The translations under genes were made by a program, and so were the position numbers. DNA of 24,930 nt from a virus. Below the pieces are notes generated by a model, which was not told the DNA's origin, made no database searches, and was given only the letters and a program-made list of their open reading frames with translations. Of the stretch, positions 2,631 through 20,781 are shown piece after piece; within the stretch, counting starts at the first letter, position 1, and the number at the start of each line of letters is the position of its first letter. The stretch lies in IMG/VR virus record IMGVR_UViG_3300009011_000049, positions 1-24,930 of that record. One strand, 5' to 3'.

Positions 2631-4301
2631 ATGGCGGAAACCGAAAAAGAGCGGTTGCTGAAGCAGCTCGCACAGCTGAAGAATGAGCGCACAACGTTCG
2701 AGCCGCACTGGCGCGACCTGAGCGACTTTATCAATCCGCGCGGTTCCCGCTTCCTGACGTCTGACGTTAACCGTGACGATCGCCGCAACACCAAAATTGT
2801 TGACCCGACCGGCTCAATGGCTCAGCGCATTCTGTCCAGTGGCATGATGTCCGGCATCACCAGTCCGGCCCGTCCGTGGTTCAAGCTTGCTACGCCTGAC
2901 CCTGACATGATGGATTACGGCCCGGTGAAAATCTGGCTGGAAGTCGTGCAGCGCCGCATGAACGAAGTGTTCAACAAGTCGAATTTGTATCAGTCACTGC
3001 CTGTCATGTACGCCAGCCTGGGTACTTTCGGTACCGCCGCAATGGCCGTGCTCGAAGATGACCAGGATGTGATCCGCACAATGCCATTCCCGATTGGCAG
3101 CTACTACCTGGCGAATAGCCCGCGCGGCAGCGTCGACACCTCATTCCGCCAGTTCTCCATGACCGTGCGACAGCTGGTGCAGGAATTCGGCCTGGATAAC
3201 GTGAGCACGTCCGTTAGGGGCATGTGGGATAACGGCACGTATGAGACGTGGATAGAGGTTAACCACTGCATCACGCCAAACATCAACCGCGACAGCGGCA
3301 AGATGGACAGCAAGAACAAGCCGTTCCGCTCTGTGTACTTCGAGACTGGCGGCGACTCCGACAAACTGCTGCGTGAATCAGGGTTCGATGAATTCCCGAT
3401 CCTGGCGCCGCGCTGGGAAGTGAACGGCGAGGACGTTTATGCATCTTCCTGTCCTGGCATGCTGGCACTCGGTCAGGTTAAAGCGCTGCAGGTTGAGCAG
3501 AAACGTAAAGCTCAGCTGATCGACAAAGCCACTAACCCGCCGATGGTTGCGCCTACATCGCTGAAGAATCAGCGCGTTTCCCTGCTGCCAGGTGATGTTA
3601 CCTATCTCGACGTGCTGAGCGGGCAGGACGGCTTCAAGCCTGCTTATCTGGTCAACCCGAATACTGCCGACCTGCTGGCTGACATTCAGGACACCCGCCA
3701 GACCATCAACAGCGCCTACTTTGTAGACCTCTTCATGATGCTGCAGAACATCAACACCCGCTCTATGCCGGTGGAAGCGGTGATCGAGATGAAGGAAGAG
3801 AAGCTGCTGATGCTCGGCCCAGTGCTGGAGCGCCTGAACGACGAGGCTCTCAACCCGCTTATCGATCGCGTGTTCTCCATCATGGCGCGAAAGAACATGC
3901 TGCCGCCGCCGCCGGAAGTTATGCAGGGCATGCCGCTGCGAATCGAGTACATCTCCGTGATGGCTCAGGCGCAGAAATCTATCGGGCTCACCAGCCTGTC
4001 GCAGACCGTTGGGTTTATCGGCCAGCTCGCACAGTTCAAGCCTGAAGCGCTCGACAAGCTCGACGTGGATCAGGCTATCGACGCGTTTTCCGAAATGTCA
4101 GGCGTATCGCCAACCGTCATCGTTCCGCAAGAACAGGTGCAGGGCATTCGCGAAGAGCGCGCCAAACAGGCTCAGCAGGCGCAGGCCATGCAGATGGGTA
4201 TGGCAGCAGCGCAGGGGGCCAAGACGCTCAGCGAGACGCAGACCACTGACCCAAGCGCGCTTACTGCTCTCACTAACGCAGCAGGAGCGGCGCAGCAATG
4301 A
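2631..4301 (+). CDS. Portal / head-tail connector protein
   Basis: The 556-residue product fits the length and character of the T7 gp8-type head-tail connector (about 535 aa). This is the dodecameric ring at the capsid vertex through which DNA enters and leaves. Supporting features are the N-terminal segment EPHWRDLSDFINPRGSRF, typical of podovirus connectors, the phrase LASGMM-like ILSSGMMSGITSPARPWFKL, and a Gln/Ala-rich C-terminal tail after residue 510 that would form the barrel or its flexible end. The start ATG has GGAG 9 bases upstream. The stop overlaps the next start (ATGA), which suggests coupled translation. Confidence 0.9.
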   Translation: MAETEKERLLKQLAQLKNERTTFEPHWRDLSDFINPRGSRFLTSDVNRDDRRNTKIVDPTGSMAQRILSSGMMSGITSPARPWFKLATPDPDMMDYGPVKIWLEVVQRRMNEVFNKSNLYQSLPVMYASLGTFGTAAMAVLEDDQDVIRTMPFPIGSYYLANSPRGSVDTSFRQFSMTVRQLVQEFGLDNVSTSVRGMWDNGTYETWIEVNHCITPNINRDSGKMDSKNKPFRSVYFETGGDSDKLLRESGFDEFPILAPRWEVNGEDVYASSCPGMLALGQVKALQVEQKRKAQLIDKATNPPMVAPTSLKNQRVSLLPGDVTYLDVLSGQDGFKPAYLVNPNTADLLADIQDTRQTINSAYFVDLFMMLQNINTRSMPVEAVIEMKEEKLLMLGPVLERLNDEALNPLIDRVFSIMARKNMLPPPPEVMQGMPLRIEYISVMAQAQKSIGLTSLSQTVGFIGQLAQFKPEALDKLDVDQAIDAFSEMSGVSPTVIVPQEQVQGIREERAKQAQQAQAMQMGMAAAQGAKTLSETQTTDPSALTALTNAAGAAQQ

Positions 4302-4594
4302 CCGACTTTGACGAAGAAGAACTGCGCATTCAGAACGAGCGGAAGAAGCACGATCTGGAGCAGCGCGAAAAGGACGACATCAAGTTCGTCATGGATAGCG
4401 AGCAGGGCCGCCGGGTCATCTGGTCACTGCTTGAGAAAGGTCAGGTATTCGGCACCTGCTTCAACGTAGAGCCGCACATCACAGCATTCAACGAAGGGCA
4501 GCGCAACCTGGCGCTGGTGCTGTTTCAGCGCGTCATGGCGCACTGCCCTGATCAGTATCTGAAGATGGCCTCAGAGGCCAGTGAACAGGAGTAA
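4298..4594 (+). CDS. Bbp19-like phage protein, 98 aa
   Basis: A short protein of the type encoded between portal and scaffold in Bordetella phage BPP-1-like and T7-like podoviruses (Bbp19 family). Recognisable features are DDIKFVMDSEQGRRVIWSLLEKGQVF, a central TAFNEGQRNLAL segment, and a C-terminal YLKMASEA helix. The N-terminus is very acidic and likely helical. The function is not established. It overlaps the portal stop by 4 bases and is followed after 2 bases by the scaffold gene, so it belongs to the head-assembly block. Confidence 0.7.
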   Translation: MTDFDEEELRIQNERKKHDLEQREKDDIKFVMDSEQGRRVIWSLLEKGQVFGTCFNVEPHITAFNEGQRNLALVLFQRVMAHCPDQYLKMASEASEQE

Positions 4595-4596
4595 CC

Positions 4597-5310
4597 ATGA
4601 ATTTATTTGAACGTTTGCTGCATCGCCGTCTTTGCAATGAGCAACCAGCTGATGGTGGCGCTGCACCGGCACCGTCTGAGCCATCCGCACCTGCTGCTGA
4701 TGCTCCGGCACCTGCTGCTGACCCGGCCAAACCAGAAGGCGATAAACCACAGCCTGGCACTGAAGGTGACAAGCCTCAGGAAGACAAACCCGCTGATGGT
4801 GAAAAGCCAGCAGACAAGCCTGCTGAAGAAAAAGAGCAGAAGCAGGAAGGCGCGCCGGAGAAATACGAATTTACAGCTGGCGAAGGCGTTGAGCTGGATA
4901 CCGAAGCGCTGAAGGACTTCGAGCCGGTTGCCCGCGATCTGAACCTGACCAATGAGCAGGCACAGAAGCTGGTGGATGCATATCCAAAAATTCTGGCCGG
5001 TGTGCAGCAGCGTCAGGCAGAAGCCTGGCAGGCGCAAACAGAGCAGTGGGCAGCCGACGTGAAGGCTGACAAAGAGATCGGTGGCGAAAAGCTGACATCA
5101 AACCTGAGTGCAGCTCAGCGCGCGCTGGACCAGTTTGGCACGCCTGAGCTCAAAGAATATCTGGAGGGAACCGGTTTGGGTAATCACCCGGAACTGGTGA
5201 AGGCCTTCATCAAAATCGGTAAGGCCATGTCAGAAGACGGCATGGTTACCGGAGCAAAAACTACGACACAGTCCGTAGCCCAACGTATGTACCCAAACAT
5301 GAACCCGTAA
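4597..5310 (+). CDS. Putative scaffolding protein
   Basis: A 237-residue acidic protein directly upstream of the major capsid gene, in the place of T7 gp9 and BPP-1 Bbp18. Residues 20-90 are an Ala/Pro/Lys/Glu-rich low-complexity linker with repeated DKP, EKP and ADKPA units. Residues 95-200 are predicted helical (VARDLNLTNEQAQKLVDAYPK and onward), a region conserved in scaffolds and capsid-assembly proteins of this phage group. The expected role is to template the procapsid and leave before or during packaging. The start ATG follows GGAG by 5 bases. Assignment rests on position, length and the helix pattern rather than on a diagnostic motif. Confidence 0.75.
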   Translation: MNLFERLLHRRLCNEQPADGGAAPAPSEPSAPAADAPAPAADPAKPEGDKPQPGTEGDKPQEDKPADGEKPADKPAEEKEQKQEGAPEKYEFTAGEGVELDTEALKDFEPVARDLNLTNEQAQKLVDAYPKILAGVQQRQAEAWQAQTEQWAADVKADKEIGGEKLTSNLSAAQRALDQFGTPELKEYLEGTGLGNHPELVKAFIKIGKAMSEDGMVTGAKTTTQSVAQRMYPNMNP

Positions 5311-7788: not shown

Positions 7789-10259
7789 TGGCTATCAGTT
7801 GGATCCAGCCAAGTTTTGCCGGTGGTGAGATTGGCCCGTCGCTGTACGGGCGCATCGATATGTCGAAGTATCAGGTGGCGCTGCGCAAGTGCGACAACTT
7901 CATTGTTCGGCAATATGGCGGGGTGGAGAATCGACCTGGAACGCGCTTCGTGGGTGAAGCAAAATATTCAAACAAAAAATGCCGCCTTATCCCGTTCCAG
8001 TTTTCGACAGTTCAGACCTATGCGCTGGAGTTCGGCGATGGCTATATGCGCGTTATCAAAGACGGCGCGTATGTGCTCAACAGCAGCAATGTGATTTACG
8101 AACTGGCGATGCCATATGCAGAAGCCGATCTGTTCCGCATTAAATTCACGCAGAGCGCCGACGTGCTTACGCTGGTACACCCGGCATACCCTCCGAAAGA
8201 GCTGCGCCGCTACGCGCACGACAACTGGCAAATCGTCGATGTCACCACCAAAAACGGTCCTTTCGAAGACATCAACGTTGACCAGTCAATCAAGGTGTAT
8301 GCCAGCGCCAGCACAGGCACAATTACACTGACGGCAAGCGCCGCTATCTTCGGCGCTGAGCAGGTCGGAAAACTGTTTTACCTTGAGCAGCCGGCGGTTG
8401 ATTCCGTTCCAGTCTGGGAAACCAGCAAGACCACCGCTATCAACGATGTGCGACGCGCTGACAGCAATTACTACCGGGCCAATACAGCCGGCAAGACCGG
8501 CACTCTACGACCTTCACATACAGAAGGGATGTCGTGGGATGGCTGGGGAGGAACAGGATCAACAGACACCGGTATTCAGTGGGAGTATCTGCACAGCGGT
8601 TTCGGTATTGTGCGTATCACCGCAGCGGCAGGAACAACCGCCACAGCCACGGTGATCAGCTATATCCCGTCTCAGGTAGTTGGGTCAGCGAATGGCAGTT
8701 ACAAGTGGGCGCGCTATGCCTGGAACAGCGTCAGCGGTTACCCGAGCACTGTTGTCTATTATCAGCAGCGTCTTTACTTCGCCGCTTCCACCTCGTACCC
8801 GCAAACCATCTGGGCAAGCCGTACAGGTGATTACAAGGACTTCGGTAAGAACAACCCTATTCAGGATGACGATCGCATAATCTACACCTACGCCGGGCGA
8901 CAGGTTAATGAGATCCGTCACCTTATTGACGTCGGCACCCTGGTCGCGCTGACATCTGGCGGTGAATATACGATATCCGGAGACCAGAATAAGGTCCTGA
9001 CGCCATCAGCTTTTGCATTCAGCTCTCAGGGCAACAACGGCTCCAGCAATGTGCCTCCTATCGCCGTGGCAAACATCGCGCTGTTCATCCAGGAGAAGGG
9101 CAGCGTGGTCCGCGATCTGGCGTACTCTTTCGACGTAGACGGGTACCAGGGAACTGACCTGACGATACTGGCAAACCACCTTTTCCAGAAGCGCAGCATT
9201 GTCGACTGGTCATTCTGTATCGTGCCGTACAGCAGTGCGTTTTGCATCCGCGACGACGGAAAACTGCTGGTGCTGACCTATCTTCGCGATCAGCAAGTTT
9301 TCGCCTGGGCGCCACAGTCCAGCGCCGGTAAATACGAAAGCACATGCTCTATCAGCGAAGGCAGCGAGGACGCGGTTTACTTCGTGGTTAATCGCACTAT
9401 CAACGGGCAGACGAAGCGTTATATCGAGCGACTTTCCAGCCGACTGTTTACCAGTGATGAAGATGCGTTCTTTGTCGACTGCGGTCTGAGCTATGACGGG
9501 CGTAACACTTCAGCGCGCACTCTGACTATCAGCGGCGGAACTGGCGACTGGAGCTACCAGGTCGACTACCCAGTCACGATTACCGGCGGGGCTTATTTCG
9601 TCAACACGGACGTTGGCGCGCAGATCCAGTTCCCGTACTCAGAAACGAATCCTGATACTGGCTCGGTGGTGGCGAAAGAGTTACGTGGTGATATTGTTTC
9701 GGTAACCAGCAGCACGGCGGTGGTAGTACGCTTTAACCGTAACGTTCCTGCAGTCCTGCGCAGCGCGGCCACGACAAACTGGCAGATGGCGCGCCAGACT
9801 TTCAGCGGCCTGTCACACCTCGAAGGTCAGACGGTCAACATCCTCTCAGACGCCAGCGTTGAGCCACAGAAAATCGTAACTGGTGGCGCTGTCACTCTGG
9901 AATCACCTGGCGCGGTGGTGCATATCGGACTGCCGATAACCGCAGAATTCGAGACGCTGGACATCAATATCAACGGCCAGGAAACGCTGCTGGATAAAAA
10001 GCAGGTCATCCCTACCGTCACGATGGTGGTCAACGCCAGCCGCGGTATCTGGGCAACCACACCGGGCGGAACATGGTACGAATATCCGCAGCGTGAGTTC
10101 GAGTTTTACGACGACCCGGTTGATGATGCCACCGGCAAGGTTGAGGTGAAGCTCGACAGCAACTGGGATAAAAACGGACGCGTTAAAGTGCGTCAACTCG
10201 ATCCTCTTCCGCTTTCCGTTCTGGCTGTAATACCACGCCTTGCCGTAGGGGGATTCTGA
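7788..10259 (+). CDS. Tail tubular protein B / nozzle (T7 gp12-like)
   Basis: An 823-residue protein of the length and type of T7 gp12 (about 794 aa), the hexameric nozzle of the short tail. The N-terminal ISWIQPSFAGGEIGPSLYGR and the following RKCDNFIVRQYGGVENRPGTRFVGEAK are hallmark segments of this family. The body is beta-rich, and the conserved TVVYYQQRLYFAASTSYPQTIWASRTGDY stretch lies near residues 320-350. It overlaps the upstream gene (TAATG) and the downstream gene (TGATG), so tubular A, nozzle and the gp13-like gene should be coupled in translation. Confidence 0.93.
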   Translation: MAISWIQPSFAGGEIGPSLYGRIDMSKYQVALRKCDNFIVRQYGGVENRPGTRFVGEAKYSNKKCRLIPFQFSTVQTYALEFGDGYMRVIKDGAYVLNSSNVIYELAMPYAEADLFRIKFTQSADVLTLVHPAYPPKELRRYAHDNWQIVDVTTKNGPFEDINVDQSIKVYASASTGTITLTASAAIFGAEQVGKLFYLEQPAVDSVPVWETSKTTAINDVRRADSNYYRANTAGKTGTLRPSHTEGMSWDGWGGTGSTDTGIQWEYLHSGFGIVRITAAAGTTATATVISYIPSQVVGSANGSYKWARYAWNSVSGYPSTVVYYQQRLYFAASTSYPQTIWASRTGDYKDFGKNNPIQDDDRIIYTYAGRQVNEIRHLIDVGTLVALTSGGEYTISGDQNKVLTPSAFAFSSQGNNGSSNVPPIAVANIALFIQEKGSVVRDLAYSFDVDGYQGTDLTILANHLFQKRSIVDWSFCIVPYSSAFCIRDDGKLLVLTYLRDQQVFAWAPQSSAGKYESTCSISEGSEDAVYFVVNRTINGQTKRYIERLSSRLFTSDEDAFFVDCGLSYDGRNTSARTLTISGGTGDWSYQVDYPVTITGGAYFVNTDVGAQIQFPYSETNPDTGSVVAKELRGDIVSVTSSTAVVVRFNRNVPAVLRSAATTNWQMARQTFSGLSHLEGQTVNILSDASVEPQKIVTGGAVTLESPGAVVHIGLPITAEFETLDININGQETLLDKKQVIPTVTMVVNASRGIWATTPGGTWYEYPQREFEFYDDPVDDATGKVEVKLDSNWDKNGRVKVRQLDPLPLSVLAVIPRLAVGGF

Positions 10260-18433: not shown

Positions 18434-18456
18434 AAAAAAGCCCGCAACGCGGGCTT
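18434..18456 (-). terminator. Intrinsic terminator of the toxin gene
   Basis: AAGCCCGC (18438-18445) and GCGGGCTT (18449-18456) form an 8-bp stem with an AAC loop. Leftward it is followed by TTTTTTGTTGG. The stem overlaps the toxin stop codon (18455-18457). On the plus strand the following bases are TATTCTT, so it may act weakly in both directions and end the virion operon. Confidence 0.8.
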
Positions 18457-19000
18457 ATTCTTCCCATTTCTCATCGAAAAGGTCTTCTTCCAGTGGCATT
18501 GGTTGAGTTTTTGTTTGTTCAAAAAAGGCGTAGCTAACTGCGATTGCAGCCTCTGTGAATTCACCTTTTTCAGTCTCGTTATGGGCATCAGCATTCACAA
18601 AAAACATGACAAGCGCATCACGATTGTGATTGACCGAATAGACTAAAAAGCTATCACTAGTGTGGGTATACCTAACCTTGACAGATGCAATGTTTTTCCA
18701 AGCATCCCACGAAGATTTCTTTCCAGAGTGATCTTTAGCGCTATCTTCTGGAACGTAATCTTTAAGGTCGGAATGAGTGTGCCTTACGTGCAGGTTGAGG
18801 ATCTCTTTTGGCCGCGCAAAAGCCGCATCTTTCCCCATATCCGGGTGGTAACCTGTTTTCCAAAACTGCTTAAATGCGTCAGCAATTTTTTTCAATTCAG
18901 GATCAGATGCACAAAGGGCCGAGAAATTCTGCGTATGCAGTACTCGACCCTTGTATGTAACAACTTGATTTTGATTATTCTGCGACGCAGACGAACTCAT
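18455..19000 (-). CDS. YafO-like type II toxin (putative mRNA interferase)
   Basis: The 181-residue product contains the run FKQFWKTGYHPDMGKDAAFARP followed by LNLHVRHTHSD and later FLVYSVNHNRDALVMFFVNADAH. This matches the YafO toxin pattern (G-x-x-P-D, G-[RK]-D-A, a H-[IV]-[HR]-x strand, then a self-contained hydrophobic strand). YafO cleaves mRNA on ribosomes (family knowledge). It is longer than E. coli YafO (about 132 aa) at both ends, with a Ser/Gln/Asn-rich N-terminus and an acidic tail EEDLFDEKWEE. I chose ATG 19000 because AAGGGG lies 4-5 bases upstream; the longer frame would begin inside the upstream gene. It overlaps the 59-aa gene by 26 bases. Confidence is moderate because no catalytic assignment was verified. 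Confidence 0.6.
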   Translation of the reverse strand: MSSSASQNNQNQVVTYKGRVLHTQNFSALCASDPELKKIADAFKQFWKTGYHPDMGKDAAFARPKEILNLHVRHTHSDLKDYVPEDSAKDHSGKKSSWDAWKNIASVKVRYTHTSDSFLVYSVNHNRDALVMFFVNADAHNETEKGEFTEAAIAVSYAFFEQTKTQPMPLEEDLFDEKWEE

Positions 19001-19154
19001 AGTTCCCCTTATCATTGCGAGAATCATGGAAAGCGCGAGACACACGCATAGCATGTTCTTTTGTCATTGTTACTTTTACGTACTCAACGCCTTCTCTGAC
19101 AGAACGTCTTGCGGCAGCCTGCGCTCTACGCACCTGCAATCTTTCGTTTCGCAT
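18975..19154 (-). CDS. 59-aa basic protein upstream of the YafO-like toxin (candidate antitoxin)
   Basis: The ORF starts with ATG at 19152-19154, preceded by AGGTGA with ideal spacing, and ends at TAA 18975. The product begins MRNERLQVRRAQAAARRSVR, is strongly basic at the N-terminus and mixed after residue 25. Its end overlaps the toxin start by 26 bases, an arrangement usual for toxin-antitoxin pairs with the antitoxin first. It does not look like YafN. The basic helix could bind DNA or RNA. Alternatively it may be an unrelated small phage protein. It is short enough to be missed by automatic callers. Confidence 0.6.
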   Translation of the reverse strand: MRNERLQVRRAQAAARRSVREGVEYVKVTMTKEHAMRVSRAFHDSRNDKGNYEFVCVAE

Positions 19155-19212: not shown

Positions 19213-19227
19213 TTACCCTTGGGGTAA
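19213..19227. promoter_or_regulatory. Operator-like palindrome TTACC-N5-GGTAA, site 2
   Basis: TTACC CTTGG GGTAA lies immediately downstream of the TAATAT -10 element of the toxin-unit promoter. A bound protein would block RNA polymerase. An extra half site (GGGTAAA) lies near 19189-19195. Confidence 0.7.
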
Positions 19228-19310: not shown

Positions 19311-20006
19311 TCAGAACTCAGCTGTGTTTTTGGTGATGTACTGCGCGTGGCTGCGGATGTCGTTCAGGCATTTGCTGACGCCGACGATGTAGCTCACCAT
19401 GGTTGTGAACTCCGCCGCCGCGCCGGAAACATCGTGCCCGTCTTCCTGCATGCGGTTGAGCAGGTTCATCAGCAGTGAGTGCTCAGCTAGGCCGAGAACG
19501 CCTTCAGGAGAATGGATGTGCTCGCGATAGCCTGGCTTAAGCGGAACATTGTATTCCTGCTTTTCTCCCGACTTCATCGCTTCCAGAATCGCTGGCATAA
19601 AACTGTCGACAACCTTCTTTGCTTTATCTGCTGGAGACAGCTCTTCTCGAACGTAGCGCCCGGTCTGGCGGATCTGTGGCAGCACTTCGCCAGTGACCCA
19701 TTTGCGGAAACGGTAGGGAATAGTGCCAGGCGTAACCGCGTCACGGCAGCGGAGGATCAGTGTGTAGAGACCGGACTCGTTGATGACGCTTACATTCTGT
19801 GCGCCTTTAACGGTGTAAGTTGAACTTACTCCCTTCTCGTCATCATCTAACGCCTTCAGTGACATGCGTGAGTTGGTGAGTCCAAGAGCTTTGCAAACGT
19901 CGGAAGCCGCAAACCACGGATTGCCGTCGATGTTGAACATACGGACAGGGGTAGCGGACTCGAATTTGAATACTGCGTCTGGGGTAGGTTTTTTTTGAGC
20001 TGTCAT
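19311..20006 (-). CDS. BRO-N domain phage antirepressor
   Basis: The 231-residue product has an N-terminal BRO-N domain (about residues 14-120): VRMFNIDGNPWFAASDVCKALG, then SGLYTLILRC and YRFRKWVTGEVLPQIRQTGRY, all hallmark segments. The C-terminal 90 residues form a second domain found in antirepressors of enterobacterial phages. Such proteins bind and inactivate phage repressors to trigger induction. I chose ATG 20006 because GGTGA lies 4-6 bases upstream; the upstream in-frame GTG/ATG candidates lack a site. A run of eight A codes for Gln-Lys-Lys at codons 4-6. A leader of about 270 bases with hairpins and Ash/Icd-like coding traces precedes it, as known for P1 icd/ant-type units. The C-terminal domain is duplicated as a separate gene at 20326. 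Confidence 0.85.
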   Translation of the reverse strand: MTAQKKPTPDAVFKFESATPVRMFNIDGNPWFAASDVCKALGLTNSRMSLKALDDDEKGVSSTYTVKGAQNVSVINESGLYTLILRCRDAVTPGTIPYRFRKWVTGEVLPQIRQTGRYVREELSPADKAKKVVDSFMPAILEAMKSGEKQEYNVPLKPGYREHIHSPEGVLGLAEHSLLMNLLNRMQEDGHDVSGAAAEFTTMVSYIVGVSKCLNDIRSHAQYITKNTAEF

Positions 20007-20261
20007 AGCGATCACCTTTGTAGTCAGGATAATCACCACTTCCGACGCCAATCGGGATGGTGGTGAACTGTGCAGGGTTGGCGTAACCGGCTACAAAGGA
20101 CCCGGCGCACCTTTCGGTGCCCCCACACAGCCCACCATAGAAACTGGTTTGCTATGTAGCACGCATAAAAAAACCGCTCGCGCGGCATATGCGCCTTTGT
20201 AGTTATCCGGGACGCCAATCCCGGCACTGGATTTTGCCAGTGCCTGATTACTATGGCACAA
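19843..20261 (-). pseudogene. Ash/Icd-like coding traces in the antirepressor leader, split over two frames
   Basis: Two overlapping frames in the leader give Ash-like peptides. Frame A (20264-20091) reads AGIGVPDNYKGAYAARAV..., then VSMVGCVGAPKGAPG, and stops at TAG. Frame B (20151-19843) reads ...CAGSFVAGYANPAQFTTIPI, then GVGSGDYPDYKGDRY. It overlaps the antirepressor start and ends at TGA 19843. The phrase SFVAGYANPAQ and the repeated IGV...YKG unit are typical of the Ash / host division inhibitor Icd-like family. The two halves join with a 1-base shift near a GGG run (20101-20103). In frame B an ATG-CGT-GCT-ACA is followed at once by TAG (20152-20154). Either the gene is frameshifted, or only one half is translated. 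No good ribosome binding site is visible. Confidence 0.4.
20223..20244 (-). other. Perfect 8-bp hairpin in the antirepressor leader
   Basis: GGCACTGG (20223-20230) and CCAGTGCC (20237-20244) pair perfectly around a 6-base loop, without a T-run in either direction. It lies in the untranslated leader between operator 3 and the Ash-like region, so it is more likely an RNA structure that controls translation or stability than a terminator. Confidence 0.5.
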
Positions 20262-20279
20262 GATTTATGCAATGTAAAT

Positions 20280-20294
20280 TTACCGTAAAGGTAA
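20280..20294. promoter_or_regulatory. Operator-like palindrome TTACC-N5-GGTAA, site 3
   Basis: TTACC GTAAA GGTAA lies upstream of the antirepressor leader, between the two antirepressor-related genes. A weak leftward -35/-10 (TTGTAA near 20317-20322 and TCATTA near 20292-20297, 19 bases apart) would again place the operator at the -10. Another candidate promoter, TTTACA-N17-CATAGT, starts just downstream. Confidence 0.65.
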
Positions 20295-20325: not shown

Positions 20326-20586
20326 CTATCTGGTTTGTTTCTTCAGTTGCTCTGCGCAGTAATCGAGATGCATCTGCAGATCCTTCATTGACATCTGCGA
20401 GCTGGTGACGTAATTCACCAGGGCTGTCAGCTCTGCCATCGGGCCATCAACGTTAAATCCGTCCTCATTAAGTTGTCGCAGCAACGTCATCAGGTGAGAT
20501 TCTTCAACAAGGGAGCGGACGCCTCCCGGCGTGTGTATGCGTTCGGCAAATCCTTTTTCCAGCGGGTGATGATACTGACGTTGCAT
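20326..20586 (-). CDS. Free-standing antirepressor C-terminal domain protein, 86 aa
   Basis: The product starts MQRQYHHPLEKGFAERIHTP. Along about 76 residues it aligns without gaps to the C-terminal domain of the adjacent antirepressor: about 30 identities counted by hand, including PL..G..E.IH.P.GV, E.S.LM.LL, EDG..V.G and AE.T..V.Y. It has no BRO-N domain. I chose ATG 20586 because GGAG lies 8 bases upstream; a TTG at 20604 is in frame. It sits directly behind a LexA-type box and, further up, operator 4. It could modulate the full-length antirepressor through shared oligomerisation or target binding, or act alone on a second repressor. This is inference. It may be co-transcribed with the antirepressor downstream. 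Confidence 0.7.
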   Translation of the reverse strand: MQRQYHHPLEKGFAERIHTPGGVRSLVEESHLMTLLRQLNEDGFNVDGPMAELTALVNYVTSSQMSMKDLQMHLDYCAEQLKKQTR

Positions 20587-20605
20587 CTCATATTCTCCAT
20601 GCAAT

Positions 20606-20625
20606 TACTGTATGAATGTACAGTA
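20606..20625. promoter_or_regulatory. LexA-type SOS box
   Basis: The sequence is TACTG-TATGAATGTA-CAGTA. Both outer pentamers match the E. coli LexA consensus exactly, with the required 10-base spacing and an AT-rich centre. The arms TACTGTA/TACAGTA are perfect inverted repeats. It lies 19 bases upstream of the small antirepressor-domain gene and overlaps a possible leftward -10 (TACAGT). It implies induction of this unit by DNA damage. Confidence 0.82.
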
Positions 20626-20662
20626 GCAAAAGTCCTGGGGACTATCCAGCATGATTTGTTGT

Positions 20663-20677
20663 TTACCCAAAAGGTAA
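20663..20677. promoter_or_regulatory. Operator-like palindrome TTACC-N5-GGTAA, site 4
   Basis: TTACC CAAAA GGTAA overlaps a leftward -10 element and lies 38 bases upstream of the LexA-type box, so the small antirepressor-domain gene appears to have two layers of control. Confidence 0.7.
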
Positions 20678-20704
20678 TAACTTTCCTGATTGTTATTCAT
20701 TCAA
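20675..20704 (-). promoter_or_regulatory. Leftward promoter upstream of the small antirepressor-domain gene
   Basis: Read leftward, TTGAAT (20699-20704), 18 bases, TTATTA (20675-20680). The -10 is overlapped by operator 4 (20663-20677), the same geometry as at sites 1 and 2. Match quality is moderate. Confidence 0.45.
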
Positions 20705-20781
20705 TTCATATAAGGGTTGTCAGGTAATAAACTGTCCAGATGATGCACGCGCGCCGGGCGCTGCTTTACTGGAGACAGGCC

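Follow-up and report, generated by a model that had tools for sequence, protein, structure and literature searches.

The window analysed here is a stretch of viral DNA of 24,930 nucleotides (IMG/VR virus record IMGVR_UViG_3300009011_000049), and the locus under study lies on its minus strand beside a divergent tailspike gene (Table 1). There, a gene for an 86-aa protein, antS, is preceded by a LexA-type box and followed downstream by a unit made up of an isrK-family RNA, a C4 antisense RNA and the antirepressor gene antL, and sites of one operator family, termed Rep operators below, are interspersed among them.

Table 1. Features of the antS and isrK-C4-antL region, with positions in the window.
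Feature	Position	Strand	Remarks
Rep operator TTACC-N5-GGTAA (TTACCCAAAAGGTAA)	20663..20677	.	between antS and divergent tailspike gene
Predicted small-ant promoter	20615..20648	-	-35-like TGGATA (about 20643-20648), 17-nt spacer, extended -10 TGcTACTGT
LexA (SOS) box TACTGTACATTCATACAGTA (coding-strand sense)	20606..20625	-	overlaps predicted -10 of ant promoter
antS, 86-aa putative antirepressor, SPC32H Ant orthologue by homology	20326..20586	-	PDB 5d50_E match, E 1.2e-45
Rep operator	20280..20294	.	ends 1 nt upstream of -35 of isrK-C4-antL promoter
Predicted promoter TTTACA-17-CATAGT (TG-extended)	20250..20278	-	predicted start is the isrK 5' end
isrK-family RNA with intrinsic terminator (stem 20186-20173)	20167..20243	-	RF01394, 77.3 bits vs cutoff 50
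C4 antisense RNA, unpaired a'/b' segments	20056..20142	-	RF01695, 79.7 bits vs cutoff 45
a2/b2 targets of C4: GATTGGCGTC, CTACAAAGGTG	20007..20052	-	CTACAAAGGTG contains antL Shine-Dalgarno
antL, 231-aa putative antirepressor, BRO-N and AntS-like C-terminal domain	19311..20006	-	Pfam Bro-N, 69.1 bits vs 25.6
Third Rep operator of the region	19213..19227	.	upstream of YafO-like accessory gene pair

The 86-aa protein aligned end to end, over residues 1-85, with chain E of PDB 5d50, the antirepressor Ant of Salmonella phage SPC32H solved in complex with its repressor (Kim et al. 2016, PNAS; also 5d4z). It is about 84% identical to its SPC32H counterpart, annotated as ant in the genomic record, and by this homology along the full 86-aa protein antS is the orthologue of SPC32H ant. 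The gene adjoins the tailspike gene in the window as it does in SPC32H, epsilon15, phiV10 and Tyrion, and epsilon15 covers 68% of the window at 84% identity; by sequence, the window represents part of a temperate podovirus of the epsilon15/SPC32H-like (Uetakevirus-like) kind. An alternative TTG start at 20604 would yield 92 aa; it was discarded because it sits in the gap that separates box and ATG, and because the orthologous protein is 86 aa long. The original prediction held that the gene encodes only the C-terminal domain of an antirepressor; as far as homology with the downstream protein goes, this stands, yet AntS corresponds to a complete known antirepressor and is no fragment. The Rep of SPC32H is described as uncleaved in the SOS response and inactivated by Ant (Kim & Ryu 2013, as cited in PMC7380047), and Rep interacts with Ant via its C-terminal tetramerisation domain (PMC9986798). 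The rep gene itself lies outside the 24.9-kb fragment.

The box in front of antS, TACTGTATGAATGTACAGTA, is a LexA (SOS)-type box that matches TACTG-N10-CAGTA with no mismatch in either pentamer and shares 17 of 20 positions with the 20-nt consensus TACTGTATATATATACAGTA, and it is the sole match with fewer than two mismatches in the whole window. With a scoring matrix derived from 11 SOS boxes of E. coli, it reached 23.0, compared with 22.7 for the recA box and 8.0 for the runner-up site in the window, and none of 400 Markov-shuffled windows scored as high. The near-perfect box of the original prediction was therefore recovered, together with its spacing: 19 nt (20587-20605) lie between the box and the antS start codon, an ATG.

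The box is also retained among relatives. Of 80 related viral loci picked solely by similarity to the 86-aa protein, 79 have CTG-N10-CAG at the equivalent position, and the distance of the box to antS is 18-23 nt in nearly all relatives. In a gap-free alignment of 47 distinct upstream sequences, every column of the left arm was invariant and the right arm nearly so, with a conservation of 1.69 bits for the box versus 1.23 bits for the stretch between operator and box, apart from the block TGCTGGATA. A weakened form, ATG-N10-CAG, occurs in 13 of 82 distinct relatives, a more divergent group in which the rest of the box is kept; such an ATG-for-CTG left half was seen upstream of the small ant in L117-L121, L127-L131, L132, L137, L144, L147 and L152-L155, and may weaken the LexA site and make induction leakier. 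A natural 1-base insertion in the middle of the box (CTG-N11-CAG), upstream of position 3001 in locus L043, should likewise weaken LexA binding. In Enterobacter phage BUCT554 (L090), a second LexA-like box (17/20) was observed at 8210-8229, upstream of a 109-aa gene near the terminase genes.

The conserved block TGCTGGATA lies between the Rep operator and the LexA box, 17 nt ahead of an extended -10, and this arrangement suggests an antS promoter composed of TGGATA and the extended -10 TGnTACTGT, in which the -10 would be the left half of the LexA box. Both the -35-like and the extended -10 hexamers are kept in the 47 distinct upstream sequences. This small-ant promoter has no good -35, and a consensus promoter scan did not call it. 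The E. coli-type CTG-N10-CAG box thus lies at, and overlaps, the predicted ant promoter, in the manner of SPC32H. LexA reportedly represses expression of SPC32H ant, so that the core of the present finding is already explained, and the SOS control of an antirepressor, as originally suggested, is supported by this orthologue. The region is a divergent promoter region, which could accommodate a box that serves the tailspike gene, or a palindrome that arose by chance; given a score equal to that of the recA box, its absence from the shuffled windows, its position before antS in nearly all relatives and the published LexA control of the orthologue, such an origin is hardly credible.

The motif TTACC-N5-GGTAA occurs four times in the window, the fourth site lying at 2305. 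In six complete related genomes it was found 8-11 times per genome, against an expectation of 0.02-0.1, while seven alternative spacers between TTACC and GGTAA yielded a single instance, and in the epsilon15 record most of the equivalent sites, including the position matching 20663, are annotated as repressor-binding. By homology, these sites are presumably bound by the phage repressor Rep. The start of the 20663 operator is 71-73 nt from the end of the LexA box in every one of the 82 distinct sequences. The second operator proposed at 20663 is therefore a real site, but of the Rep type; a second LexA box at this position was considered and rejected in favour of a phage-repressor-type operator. 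It also lies upstream of a conserved element on the tailspike side and may serve the tailspike promoter instead of ant. A conserved ATTCATATAAGG and a GGTAAT half-site were observed at 20700-20730 (plus strand), in the interval from the Rep operator to the start of the tailspike gene, and are probably the tailspike promoter.

Two further observations concern the operator family. Rep operators paired at a spacing of exactly 62 bp were seen near rep and in the replication region of six phages (L086, L004, L087, L088, L089 and L090), for example at 33604/33666 and 35972/36034 in L086, and this spacing would suit a looping tetrameric repressor. Behind the operator at 19213, a 181-199-aa protein preceded by a 59-aa protein is encoded at 18455-19154 (minus strand); the larger protein has a weak, sub-cutoff match to the YafO toxin (22.4 bits vs 25), its relative in TL-2011b is annotated as a YafO-family toxin, and by sequence the two resemble an accessory pair of genes that Rep would control.

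Downstream of antS, the isrK-C4-antL unit has a promoter of its own. The order of Rep operator, 1 nt and TTTACA-17-CATAGT is found with identical geometry in 26 of 26 distinct relatives, and it is likely that this promoter is under Rep control. The isrK-family RNA scored above the Rfam gathering threshold and ends in a 3' intrinsic terminator (the same region reached 43.5 bits, slightly under the cutoff, with RF03163), and it carries the a1/b1 target sites of C4, which overlap the terminator. The C4 RNA, which likewise exceeded its gathering score, follows. Among 20 loci tested, isrK and C4 were both present in all 15 that have the unit and both absent from all five that lack it; the two are already known as a pair, being annotated together in APSE phages. 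For antL, the ATG at 20006, with CTACAAAGGTGATCGCT ahead of it, was taken as the start in place of a TTG at 20051.

The arms of C4 and both of its target pairs vary together across relatives. The first arm occurs as GGCGTC, GGTCTC, GGAACC, TGCACC or GAGACC and the second as CTACAAAGG, CTAAGTGG, CTAAAAGG or CTAGTAGG, and because the variants of the two arms appear in different combinations, their match with the targets does not reflect a single inherited event. For each of the four pairings, complementarity within the own locus exceeded that in all permutations (0/20000), with the permutation ignoring relatedness. The a'/b' arms are thus complementary to targets in the antirepressor leader, with covariation; the second arm spans the Shine-Dalgarno sequence of antL, and both arms are unpaired in the folded C4. 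Whole-RNA cofolding of C4 with its targets gave almost no gain, since C4 and the targets are both strongly folded, and the evidence for C4-target interaction used here is therefore local arm pairing and covariation in place of whole-RNA cofolding.

The N-terminal part of AntL matches Pfam Bro-N above the cutoff, and its C-terminal domain is 38% identical to AntS (E 9e-20) and also matches PDB 5d50_E (E 1.7e-13). AlphaFold2 modelled this C-terminal domain poorly (pLDDT about 31-62), and its assignment is based on the sequence match to 5d50_E, not on the model; a search of NCBIfam gave no matches for the four genes searched. In related loci, the same C-terminal domain is fused to AntA, ORF6N or P22_AR_N instead of Bro-N. 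As its N-terminal partners are swappable, the shared C-terminal domain is likely a Rep-recognition module, of which the 86-aa protein would be the free-standing form. Fusions with P22_AR_N, AntA and ORF6N were located at 3734-4684 (minus strand) in L028, 3330-4268 (minus strand) in L078, 4406-5062 in L058 and 4059-4793 in L017, and some phages have two or three copies of the SPC32H-Ant-like domain. In the sister phage ZX5, overexpression of the BRO-N antirepressor (ORF4) lowers lysogeny (PMC9782041), which by analogy supports an antirepressor function of AntL in this phage group.

On sequence evidence, namely the LexA-type box, the orthology of antS with SPC32H ant, the family of Rep operators, the geometry of the promoter, C4 and isrK with their covariation, and the domain common to AntS and AntL, we propose that the locus is in all likelihood the induction switch of an epsilon15/SPC32H-type podovirus, running from LexA through AntS and Rep to isrK-C4-antL. 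First, LexA would occupy the antS promoter in the lysogen, and upon DNA damage LexA would be lost and the 86-aa AntS produced, which would bind Rep and strip it from its operators, as published for SPC32H. By analogy with the SPC32H orthologue, this path from LexA release through AntS to the removal of Rep from its operators is almost certain, the LexA binding and the AntS-Rep binding being carried over from homologues. Second, loss of Rep from the operator at 20280 would turn on the isrK-C4-antL promoter, as should be expected from an operator that abuts this promoter. The C4 RNA would then pair with the antL ribosome-binding site and block antL translation, and the IsrK RNA, bearing the C4 target sequence, would act as a decoy that titrates C4. 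In Gifsy-1, IsrK increases translation of the AnrP antirepressor about 140-fold (PMC4825925), and in our own reading this fits a decoy for the RNA at the C4 position; in the present phage the decoy role is presumed from the shared target sequence. Finally, once C4 has been titrated by IsrK, AntL, which would presumably target the same Rep as AntS, might reinforce or lock the inactivation of Rep. The order of AntS before AntL and the locking role of AntL are put forward tentatively.

The original prediction envisaged a two-step switch in which the small protein comes first and the full antirepressor second; this order is plausible, but it is probably not brought about by read-through. A single SOS transcript from about 20600 through antS, isrK and C4 into antL would allow damage to give both proteins directly, and it accords with the shared strand of antS and antL, with the search for a terminator-like site between 20326 and 20250, which found none, and with the partial passage of Gifsy-1 transcripts through the isrK terminator (PMC4825925). 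However, antL has its own conserved promoter and Rep operator, the isrK terminator and C4 intervene between antS and antL, and in L031, L036 and L067 about 1.1 kb separates the two genes, with longer ORFs there on the opposite strand. Owing to this promoter, the isrK terminator and the intervening genes in some loci, SOS read-through is unlikely to be the main design.

The antL unit might alternatively be an independent module of the immI type, as in P1/P22, directed against resident repressors during infection, its adjacency to antS being coincidental. The C4-type arrangement is indeed the P1 immI design, many relatives (SPC32H, epsilon15 and BUCT554 among them) have antS without antL, and P22_AR_N genes with the same C-terminal domain occur on the other strand. 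Yet the isrK-C4-antL promoter bears an operator of the family that belongs to the phage's own repressor, antL has the AntS domain, and antS is on the same strand in 69 of 80 loci with the antL domain, on the opposite strand in five and absent from the examined stretch, some stretches being short, in six. Therefore, the Rep-type operator and the common domain wire antS and antL to the same Rep by sequence, and an independent module with coincidental adjacency is doubtful. Under the proposed induction switch, the locus could be a two-tier antirepression cascade, in which an SOS-controlled minimal domain is followed by a C4/IsrK-gated antirepressor with the same domain, to give a threshold and then a lock; we regard this as possible, somewhat short of probable.

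At its core, the system adds one more example of SOS induction through an antirepressor and not through cleavage of the repressor, and calls for no new biology; the SOS antirepressor and the pair of C4 and isrK are each of a known kind. In the tandem, two proteins with a common domain apparently act against one repressor, of which one reports DNA damage and the other is gated by Rep and an antisense RNA. A limited search of the open-access literature found no description of such coupling of antS and antL through a common repressor and domain. If the proposed order is true, the purpose of C4/IsrK-controlled antirepressors becomes directly testable, the repressor-antirepressor structure being already solved.

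Compared with known systems, the locus is closest in its SOS part to SPC32H Rep/Ant, with which it shares an Ant of high identity, the LexA box position, the gene neighbourhood and the operator motif. However, SPC32H lacks the isrK-C4-BRO antirepressor unit, and phage G001, the closest relative of the window with AntS and AntL identical to those encoded here, encodes a Rep that shares just 46% identity with its SPC32H counterpart. The LexA-controlled Gifsy/Fels-2 antirepressors and Tum of phage 186 are, by description, like AntS in being small SOS-controlled antirepressors acting against a non-cleaved repressor, and Kim and Ryu are said to class them as another type. The immI regions of P1 and P7 (C4 RNA, icd and ant) comprise a C4 antisense RNA with a'/b' arms, two target pairs and an antirepressor downstream. 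All three of these elements recur in the window unit, whereas it has no visible icd, carries BRO-N and SPC32H-Ant-like domains and adjoins an SOS antirepressor. With isrK-orf45-anrP of Gifsy-1, the unit shares isrK and its terminator, then a processed RNA of about 80 nt in the C4 position, and the antirepressor gene downstream; in contrast, Gifsy-1 has translation coupling through orf45 and an upstream antiterminator gene (PMC4825925), while in the window the predicted pairing partner of C4 is the ribosome-binding site of the antirepressor gene itself, and the promoter bears a Rep operator.
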